Assembly (NCBI RefSeq): GCF_032051675.1
Contig: NZ_CP116968.1
Coordinates: forward strand, 2,108,001 to 2,172,000
Origin: Candidatus Nitrospira neomarina
Lineage (GTDB): Bacteria; Nitrospirota; Nitrospiria; Nitrospirales; UBA8639
DNA: 64,000 bases
Reading direction: 5' to 3'
This document shows, in pieces, positions 7,350 to 21,864 of the stretch. The translations under genes and the position numbers were made by a program. The notes under the pieces are model-generated. The model had not been told where the DNA came from. It ran no database searches and was given only the letters and a program-made list of their open reading frames with translations. How positions within the stretch are numbered: the stretch's first letter is position 1; every line of letters begins with the position of its first letter.

Positions 7350-8276
7350 GTGCCCAACACCTTAGCCCACATCGGAGTGCAAGGCTTTCTGAATCAGGCC
7401 GTTAAACCGGGGATCGACCCTAAACTGGTGTGCCTGGGGTGTTTGCTTCCGGACATCCCATGGATTTTTCAAAGAGTCCTACTGGGAATCTTGCCGGGAA
7501 GCGATCCTTATACCATTCGACTCTACTGTATTGCTCAAGCGTCCTTATTCGTCACATTAATGTTATGCGGGGCTTTGGCCTTCCTTTCAAAAACGCCAAA
7601 AGCCGTGTTCATGATTCTCGGGGTCAACGTCCTCATTCATCTCGTGCTTGATGGCCTTCAAACAAAATGGGCGAATGGCGTCCATTTCTTTGCCCCACTG
7701 TCATGGGACTTATGGAATGTGGGGTTATTTTGGCCGGAAAGTCTTCCAACCTATATTATGACCGGGGGAGGCTTACTCTATATAGGATGGCAATGGCGAA
7801 AGGGCATATCACAGCCGCTCCCATTCTCGCCCTGGTCTCCTTTCAAAGTGGGGATATCGGCGTCGTTACTCCTACTGTACTTTGCGCTGCCTTTGGTTCT
7901 CATTGAAGGACCTCGAAACGCCAATAACCATTTCATCCGAACACTTGAAGAAATGGAGGCTCGTCCAGGACGTCATCTGGAATTGGATCGATCTTCCTAT
8001 GAGAAAACCCCGGCAGGCGATATGCTTGGTCTCTTCAATGGTGAAACAATCAAGAGCTCTCAAGAAATTCTGGATCACTCCGCTATCGTTTCGATTCGTG
8101 GACGTTTTGTCACGCCCACCCAACTGGATGTTCTTGAATTTCACGAACATTCCAGTTGGTTCCGTGATACGGGCAGTTACCTGGGTATTCTTCTCCTGTT
8201 TGGCATGTGGTTGGGAGCTTTCCTGAAACAAGGCCTGTTCCACTCTTCAAACAAGGCAGGTCATCATTCTAGTTAA
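7350..8276 (+). CDS. Polytopic membrane protein, YdjM-like putative metal-dependent hydrolase
   Basis: A 308-residue protein starting at a GTG with AAGGAAG upstream. It carries an N-terminal AHIG stretch, a CLLPDIPW motif, and HLVLDGLQ inside a membrane region, the His/Asp arrangement of YdjM/DUF4184-like membrane hydrolases. Hydrophobic segments occur near residues 65-85, 90-110, 130-150, 170-190 and 280-300, with a soluble loop between the last two. Substrate is unknown. The family assignment is moderate because the motifs are short. The gene ends 5 bases before the repeat element at 8282, which has not touched its coding sequence. Confidence 0.5.
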   Translation: MPNTLAHIGVQGFLNQAVKPGIDPKLVCLGCLLPDIPWIFQRVLLGILPGSDPYTIRLYCIAQASLFVTLMLCGALAFLSKTPKAVFMILGVNVLIHLVLDGLQTKWANGVHFFAPLSWDLWNVGLFWPESLPTYIMTGGGLLYIGWQWRKGISQPLPFSPWSPFKVGISASLLLLYFALPLVLIEGPRNANNHFIRTLEEMEARPGRHLELDRSSYEKTPAGDMLGLFNGETIKSSQEILDHSAIVSIRGRFVTPTQLDVLEFHEHSSWFRDTGSYLGILLLFGMWLGAFLKQGLFHSSNKAGHHSS

Positions 8277-8526
8277 CAACAGGGAGTGTTGAATAATAAG
8301 GATGTTCAAGGGCAAATTGGCCCATGATTAGATTACTCAGCAAAGGCTCCGGGTCGGTTCAAAAAAGCATGCCCTGAGTCTTCCCGAAGGGTCCGTCCAG
8401 TCCTGTCCTGAGGCCCCCCGAAGGAAAGGCCGCAACCGTTTTTACGCGCGGAGCGTACGCTTAGTACGTGAACACGGGAAAATGGCGAGAACGCCGCTGG
8501 CGGCTTTTTTCAACAGACCCCAACAG
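8277..8526 (+). mobile_element. Small non-autonomous element (MITE-like), copy 1
   Basis: The element spans 8282-8520 (239 bp). Its ends are imperfect inverted repeats, GGGAGTGTTGAA on the left and, read inward from the right, GGGTCTGTTGAA (10 of 12 match). It is flanked by CAACA at 8277-8281 and 8521-8525, a 5-base direct repeat suitable as target duplication. There is no coding frame. A second copy lies inverted at 20249-20439. Copy 1 carries about 48 extra internal bases, in two blocks each ending in CCCGAAGG or CCGAAGG, that copy 2 lacks. Confidence 0.8.
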
Positions 8527-20178: not shown

Positions 20179-20839
20179 TCATAATTTTGAAGAACGATCT
20201 TTGACGAGGATCGTGCCCTTCATGCCCGTGCGCCCTTTTATCCAACAGAGGTCTGTTGAAAAAAGCCGCCAGCCGCGTTCTCGCCATTTTTCCGTGCTCA
20301 TGTACTCAACGTACGCTCCGCGCGTAAAAACGGCTGCGGCCTTGCTGGACGGACTTTTTTGAACCGACCCTGAGCCTTTGATGAGTAATCTAATCCTGGG
20401 CCAATTTGCCCTTGAAAATCTTTATTATTCAACACTCCCAACAGCGAAAGGGATAGAGACCGGCAGACGCGGTGAAAGACAACTCAATCGATTGACCAGG
20501 CTGAAGGACAACGGCATTGGCTTCTTGAAGCGCCACCTTTGGCTGATGCCATAGGACGCCAGCCTCCGGTCCGAACAATTCCGGGCTGTGAAACACATGT
20601 CTTTCCCGTCCATGATTCCGAATCAGAAGACGAAGAGGCTGGTCGGATACCCATTCAATCCGGGCAGGAGTAAATCGAAACTCTTCAGCCGTCACCATGA
20701 TTGTGGATGAACCACCCCATTCACAGGAACCCTGCAGAATGACGCAAGAAAGGCCACCGAGGATCCACCCCAATCTCGGGTGAGCCTTGCGGCGAATCCA
20801 CCGCGGGCGGGAGATCCATTTCCCGAATGTCATCAACAC
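20179..20839 (-). pseudogene. Cupredoxin-like lipoprotein or exported protein gene split by a small element
   Basis: The 5' part (20429-20839) encodes a 136-residue product: a basic N-terminus, a hydrophobic segment around residues 26-42, and a cupredoxin-type beta-barrel (VTAEEFRFTPARIEW, RLLIRNHGRERHVFHS) that would hold copper. It breaks off in FRCW, at the Cys ligand, where the element at 20249-20439 begins, then reads two more codons and stops. Beyond the element, in the matching frame, 20179-20250 reads LCWIKGRTGMKGTILV and ends in TGA: exactly the missing last strand with the Met ligand. The His normally expected before that Met is Arg here. The gene is therefore disrupted, unless the truncated form has a use. 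Confidence 0.85.
20244..20444 (-). mobile_element. Small non-autonomous element (MITE-like), copy 2
   Basis: The element spans 20249-20439 (191 bp), inverted relative to the copy at 8282-8520. Terminal inverted repeats GGGAGTGTTGAA and AGGTCTGTTGAA are kept, and AACAG flanks it at 20244-20248 and 20440-20444. It lies inside the cupredoxin gene, whose two halves rejoin across it. It lacks two short internal blocks present in copy 1. No coding capacity is seen, so a transposase would have to act in trans; none of matching ends is visible in this window. Confidence 0.85.
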
Positions 20840-20952
20840 CTCCTGAATGAAACCTCATCCAACCCCTCTGTTTCGGAACACGATTGGAACGACGAATCCC
20901 CTCCTTTTAAATATCACATGCACAGGACAAGGCAGTTCTGACATAATGGCTC

Positions 20953-21864
20953 ATGTCCTCATCTATCATTCTCAAAGGAATCCAGTTGTCCGCACGATGC
21001 GGGGTGACTGAAACGGAAAGGCAGCAACCTCAACCTCTTCTGGTCGATCTGACCTTCCGATGCCCTAATCAATCGGCCTTTCAGAGTGATCACATTTCCG
21101 ATACAGTGGATTACGGAACAATCACGCAACGAATTTTAGACATTGGGGAAGGGCAGGCCTTTTCGCTGATTGAAACATTGGCGGAGAGCATCTGCCAAGC
21201 CCTGCTTCATGAATTTCCCATTACACGTCTCAAAATATGGGTCAGAAAAATCCGCCCTCCGTTGAAAAGCATTGAGGGGTCTGTCGGGGTCCAATTGATC
21301 CGATCGCGCCAACCAATCGCTTCCCTTGATCACAAGCATCTTTCTCCATTTCTAGTAGACCAATTCTCCCGACTTCCTCACGGAACGGTGTTAGATGTGG
21401 CAACGGGACGAGGTCGTCATGCCATGTATTTGGCTTCCAAAGGGTTTTCGGTTCATGGCATCGATCGCGATGCCGACGCGCTCAAGGAGCTTCAGGACCA
21501 AGCCCAAGAAGCGGCCCTACCCTTGATAACGACCGAATGCATAGACTTAGAAGCGAATCCGCAATATCCGCCGGACTTGGGCACAGCCGTGTACGATGTG
21601 ATTATCGTCTTCTTCTACTTGTACCGGCCCCTCTTTCCTCAACTGGTTAACGCCCTGAAATCCGGCGGCGTCCTCATGTATGAAACCTTCCTTCTTGACA
21701 ACCATATTCATCGGCAACACCCACGCCGAAAAGAGTTCTGCCTGGAAACCAATGAATTACTCACACTTCTTCAAGGGCTCAGAATTCTCCATTACGACGA
21801 AGGGGATCATGAAAGCTCTTCGGCACGGGCATATACCGCACGCATTTTGGCACGGAAACCATAA
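20953..21864 (+). CDS. Dihydroneopterin aldolase fused to a SAM-dependent methyltransferase
   Basis: A 303-residue fusion. Residues 1-120 are a complete FolB: an N-terminal strand ILKGIQLSARCGVTETERQ, DTVDYGTI, SLIETLAESI, and the C-terminal VRKIRPPLKSIEG, matching the folate enzyme that cleaves dihydroneopterin to hydroxymethyl-dihydropterin and glycolaldehyde. Residues about 130-300 are a Rossmann methyltransferase of the TehB-like type: SAM-binding motif LDVATGRGRHAMYLA, acidic GIDRD, and YDVIIVFFYLYRPLFPQL followed by GGVLMYETF. The joint is a short linker with no stop or frameshift between. The methyl acceptor is unknown. The next gene, a PHP phosphoesterase, begins 15 bp later and is probably co-transcribed. 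Confidence 0.85.
   Translation: MSSSIILKGIQLSARCGVTETERQQPQPLLVDLTFRCPNQSAFQSDHISDTVDYGTITQRILDIGEGQAFSLIETLAESICQALLHEFPITRLKIWVRKIRPPLKSIEGSVGVQLIRSRQPIASLDHKHLSPFLVDQFSRLPHGTVLDVATGRGRHAMYLASKGFSVHGIDRDADALKELQDQAQEAALPLITTECIDLEANPQYPPDLGTAVYDVIIVFFYLYRPLFPQLVNALKSGGVLMYETFLLDNHIHRQHPRRKEFCLETNELLTLLQGLRILHYDEGDHESSSARAYTARILARKP

Follow-up and report, generated by a model that had tools for sequence, protein, structure and literature searches.

A 191-bp MITE severs a cupredoxin gene in Candidatus Nitrospira neomarina, and the same nucleotide was probably hit a second time in another species

The stretch of 64,000 nucleotides from Candidatus Nitrospira neomarina considered here (hereafter the window) carries on its minus strand a gene for a lipoprotein-type, single-domain cupredoxin that is cut in two by a short element. 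There is little doubt about the overall explanation, namely that a non-autonomous, transposase-mobilised MITE inserted just before the last cupredoxin beta strand. Of most interest, however, is that one nucleotide has probably been used twice and independently, since a member of the same family occupies the same position in the genome of a second species.

The disrupted cupredoxin gene

The features on which the argument is built are given below in window coordinates.

20440..20839, minus strand: 5' part of the lipoprotein-type single-domain cupredoxin gene (PF13473 match, frame, intact homologues)
20429..20431, minus strand: premature TGA stop contributed by the element, two codons into it (sequence)
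20249..20439, minus strand: 191-bp MITE, short form, non-coding, with internal hairpin and ends GGGAGTGTTGAA ... TTCAACAGACCT (family consensus ...CCC), defined by copies, ends and target-site duplication (TSD) analysis
20440..20444, plus strand: TSD copy 1, AACAG (CTGTT on the minus strand), from the sequence
20244..20248, plus strand: TSD copy 2, AACAG, from the sequence
20179..20248, minus strand: severed 3' cupredoxin part, (C)WIKGRTGMKGTILVKDRSSKL-stop, with the stop at 20179, a His ligand changed to Arg and a conserved Glu changed to Lys
8282..8520, plus strand: another member of the family, in its long 239-bp form (TSD CAACA at 8277-8281 and 8521-8525)

The premature stop can be read directly. 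The minus-strand frame (20839-20429) runs ...GLYPFRCWEC-stop, with its TGA at 20431-20429 and its E and C codons derived from the element, in agreement with the initial annotation, which had described a frame reaching FRCW and stopping within two codons of the element boundary. The same annotation held that a matching frame resumes past the element and ends naturally, and the tail does read on to the stop at 20179; this cut-off portion is CWIKGRTGMKGTILVKDRSSKL. Joining the flanks with a single AACAG yields one continuous cupredoxin frame of 154 aa. Candidate starts on the minus strand are an ATG at 20833 and a GTG at 20839, with a Shine-Dalgarno motif AGGAGG at 20844-20839. The ATG would most likely be the start, because it lies 5 bases past AGGAGG, whereas the GTG overlaps it.

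The 5' part retains the first His and the Cys ligand, and scores 27.1 bits against PF13473 (Cupredoxin_1, cut-off 27) over profile positions 20-92 of 104, as compared with 31.1 bits, above the cut-off, over positions 19-104 of 104 for the intact homologue of the sister genome G001. Set against single-domain cupredoxins of this Pfam family, the window copy therefore stands at the cut-off but does not hold a complete domain: it has no C-terminal strand and is without the His and Met ligands of the tail. The type-1 ligand set (His, Cys, His, Met) is incomplete, as the second His has become Arg and lies, together with the Met, past the stop; relatives retain both H and M ligands in their tails. 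A PDB sequence search with the intact protein returned weak matches only, the best being 4hcf (E 0.02).

The host genome (G000) has eight further PF13473-like loci, of which six score above the cut-off, and the interrupted gene was not found in the complete relatives G013 and G020; for both reasons it is regarded as dispensable. In the window, positions 20953-21864 encode a fusion of FolB (dihydroneopterin aldolase) with a TehB-like methyltransferase domain, an arrangement kept in 20 of the 21 genomes of the genus.

The element and its family

The initial annotation had proposed a 191-bp inverted-repeat element, and its boundaries, directly visible, enclose exactly 191 bp (20249-20439). The 12-bp ends match at 10 of 12 positions and then diverge, with 15 matches over the first 38 bases. 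A local repeat finder reported no inverted repeats at the element, because the 12-bp ends match at just 10 positions. The element strand contains an internal hairpin and folds better than shuffled sequences (z -3.25), and open stretches in the family consensus reach at most 47 codons, whichever frame is read.

Family membership is likewise a matter of observation. At least 40 copies are present in the 4.80-Mb host genome (the best 40 of 95 candidates scored), and the family, whose ends are GGGNNTGTTGAA with 5-bp duplications, occurs in all 21 genomes of the genus. The conserved ends of the aligned copies are GGGAGTGTTGAA / TTCAACAGACCC, most copies being 191 bp long. The long copy at 8282-8520 of the window lies directly after an ORF (7350-8276). 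The view that the AACAG on both sides is a target duplication is strongly backed by the rest of the family: in a sample of 80 copies drawn from seven genomes, 59 are flanked by an exact 5-bp duplication, against a mean of 1.15 after shuffling (maximum of 6 in 2000 shuffles). A weak palindromic target preference, approximately WTCC-WTWAW-GGAW, surrounds the duplicated bases. Short, as MITEs are (below about 600 bp), devoid of a transposase gene, bounded by terminal repeats and 5-bp TSDs, dispersed in many copies and with empty counterpart sites, the element is a MITE.

The hairpin core (consensus ~76-187) recurs across the order at 73-77% identity, and full-length matches (1-191) were seen only in the genus and in a few genomes of the same family; from this distribution, the 191-bp unit seems to have an older and wider repeat as its foundation. 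An order-wide core and a high copy number are also features of REP sequences and REPINs, the latter being paired REP hairpins mobilised by a linked RAYT tyrosine transposase, and it could be argued that a palindrome of the REP/REPIN type, or else a hairpin with a regulatory role, was formed in place here rather than transposed. The recurrence of that core speaks for this reading, which is nevertheless very improbable, as what transposes here is a larger unit with fixed ends, exact 5-bp duplications accompany most sampled copies and relatives have empty sites. A search of the element against Rfam gave a single sub-threshold, chance-like match, and the element was not found among 72,556 plasmids.

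An autonomous partner was sought as paired terminal repeats 0.7-5 kb apart. Autonomous elements with matching exact ends were not found in G000 or in the listed parts of G001, G013, G019 and G020, in a search that would miss partners with altered ends. One candidate in the host genome (1893521-1894951; L112 201-1631) was rejected, being an IS110-like transposase gene inside a MITE copy, an assignment made by reading the gene's sequence and not by profile search. Those in G001 and G019 were rejected because each consists of two separate MITE copies with ordinary sequence between them.

Empty sites in relatives and age of the insertion

The empty site was observed directly in nine relatives with an uninterrupted gene (G001, G008, G009, G019, G014, G004, G015, G005 and G006). 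The whole tail is readable in seven of the first eight; the exception is G008, deposited as 'Nitrospirales bacterium NPIRA03', in which the reading ends at FRCWIKGH, the end of its contig. In G006, the alignment spans the insertion site and does not contain the element. The closest relative, G001, reads CWIKGHTGMEGTI without interruption, its whole tail being FRCWIKGHTGMEGTIFVKDRSSKL-stop. These relatives display what the initial annotation had predicted for an undisturbed homologue, that is, a continuous CWIKG(H)xGM lacking the 191 bp and one AACAG. The surroundings of the gene have received the family elsewhere in the genus: a MITE copy lies downstream of the cupredoxin gene in G009 and another abuts folB at the expected cupredoxin position in G007. 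The cupredoxin region is thus one that tolerates MITE insertions nearby.

With such relatives at hand, the idea that the interrupted gene encodes a naturally two-part protein, or a truncated but functional one, and is no wreck becomes very improbable. It could draw on the 5' part, an open frame still over the Pfam cut-off, and on an ATG inside the element from which the tail can be read in frame (ORF 20179-20301). Nevertheless, all nine relatives have a single continuous frame, a His invariant among them is gone from the severed tail, the gene is dispensable, not having been found in G013 and G020, and the counterpart in genome G018, described below, carries stops, a frameshift and an N-terminal deletion.

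G000 and G001 are 94-95% identical over the flanks and, the sister having no insertion, the event postdates their split. At 4-fold sites the two genomes differ at 12.1%, with about 4.5% of sites private to G000. Four substitutions of the window element have no counterpart in 60 close copies, and two others are rare; together they amount to 2-3% of its 191 bp, although these age figures derive from small numbers and could be distorted by gene conversion among copies. In the severed tail, the invariant His has changed to Arg and a Glu conserved in relatives to Lys. On these sequence comparisons, the insertion is young on the species scale, yet old enough for decay to have begun. The description of the event as recent, made in the initial annotation, therefore holds in the sense that it followed the split from G001, but the insertion is not fresh: the 191 bp have gathered some 4-6 private changes, and the tail has lost its His.

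The same nucleotide in a second species

In G018, two contigs, C64 (L061) and C400 (L062), which represent strain-like variants of one locus, carry a member of the MITE family inserted at the very nucleotide, and with the orientation, seen in the window. The initial annotation had considered that a relative sharing the element at this place, with a conserved two-part protein, would speak against a disruption. Such a relative does occur, but its gene is wrecked and no functional two-part protein is encoded: the G018 cupredoxin has decayed through stops, a frameshift and an N-terminal deletion. A chimeric G018 assembly is disfavoured, as the element in C64 is flanked left and right by cupredoxin sequence, and one of the two junctions recurs in C400.

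The two insertions differ in several respects. The duplications are TTCTT/TTCTT in G018 and CTGTT/CTGTT in the window. Apart from one 70-bp insert, the G018 element can be aligned gap-free with the 239-bp form, the structural form also found at 8282-8520 of the window, whereas the element in the cupredoxin gene of the window is of the 191-bp form. The two elements have no private substitutions in common, each being nearer to other copies. In addition, the codon of the Cys ligand reads Ser in both duplication copies of G018, suggesting that the gene had been damaged before the element arrived. Target preference favours a second hit: when window positions are ranked by it, the G000 site comes within the top 3.8% and that of G018 within the top 0.4%. 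Against a double hit stands the chance of a second insertion at the same base and strand, roughly 1e-5 to 5e-4, which is low for coincidence.

The duplications match within each genome but differ between the two, the elements have different structural forms and the sister G001 is empty; all this argues that G018 was hit by the long form independently of G000, at a weakly preferred site, and this is considered likely. The competing explanation is a single ancestral insertion common to G000 and G018, after which the gene was made whole again in G001 and G008, through recombination with an allele lacking the element or through precise excision, and the duplications and interior in one lineage were rewritten by gene conversion stopping at the heterology border. 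Identity of nucleotide and orientation is what such a history would produce, and other loci lend it some plausibility. At two shared sites besides the cupredoxin the MITE interiors differ between species, as is the case for insertions apparently inherited in common (L078 in G018 and L122 in G000; L072, L023 and L088). Judging from these sequences, MITE interiors may be exchanged among copies through gene conversion, which weakens the argument for two insertions drawn from the long and short forms. For comparison, at one site occupied in G000, G008 and G018, apparently through common descent, the TSD is TACAA in the first two and shows one one-sided change in the third.

G008 shows signs of local recombination as well. 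Its locus L063 (window equivalent ~20438-21690) is 96% identical to G000/G001 and 83% identical to G018 at the cupredoxin, while further out from this gene G008 is 93-97% identical to G018. The alternation suggests a recombinant locus, and this appearance makes G008 weak as an empty sister of G018. A single ancestral insertion would nonetheless require matching changes in both TSD copies, two regains of the gene and a switch of structural form; moreover, G001, with 94% identity to G000 over this locus, just has no element there, and its tail retains the constrained CWIKGHTGMEG. Common ancestry of the two insertions is accordingly rated as rather unlikely, and two independent arrivals as the preferred account.

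A further and doubtful suggestion is that target choice is sharp enough for repeated insertion at this nucleotide, in this orientation and in this gene, across species. If this were true, cupredoxin loss would be recurrent and mechanistically biased instead of coincidental, and shared MITE positions in the genus would be no proof of common descent.

Proposed mechanism and consequence

In the proposed model, the non-autonomous MITE entered the cupredoxin gene by the action of a transposase, presumably a cut-and-paste enzyme of the DDE type. The two strands would have been cut at points 5 bp apart (CTGTT, minus strand) and then filled in to give the 5-bp duplication, with the TGA of the element terminating the cupredoxin frame two codons on. 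The truncated protein has neither the second His nor the Met, and its last beta strand is missing; according to established cupredoxin chemistry, it should not form a type-1 copper site.

Relation to known elements and significance

Bacterial MITEs have been described (reviewed in PMC10969869), MITEAba12 among them (PMC6382973), that are likewise short and non-coding, have terminal inverted repeats and TSDs, reach high copy number and disrupt genes. The present family differs from them in that no autonomous partner was found for it and in that the same nucleotide is occupied in two species. The Tn3-derived TIMEs have AT-rich 5-bp TSDs, no transposase and 38-bp terminal repeats, and repeated transposition of TIMEs into one sacB site has been reported (PMC4133298). 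The TSD of the MITE studied here is also 5 bp long and AT-rich, with a preference for ~WTWAW; unlike TIMEs, it has no 38-bp Tn3-type repeats, its ends matching at 10/12 and 15/38 positions. Neither this family nor the host lineage was found in the literature searched. The MITE family is new, while gene disruption by a MITE is itself an already known kind of event.

In summary, the locus offers a clean before-and-after view of how a gene of an environmental Nitrospirales bacterium was destroyed by a miniature element, the nine relatives in which the gene is intact acting as controls. It is also a tractable place to work out by what rule an orphan MITE family, found in every genome of the genus examined, chooses its targets. 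The probable independent second insertion at one base serves as a warning that shared sites are not always inherited.
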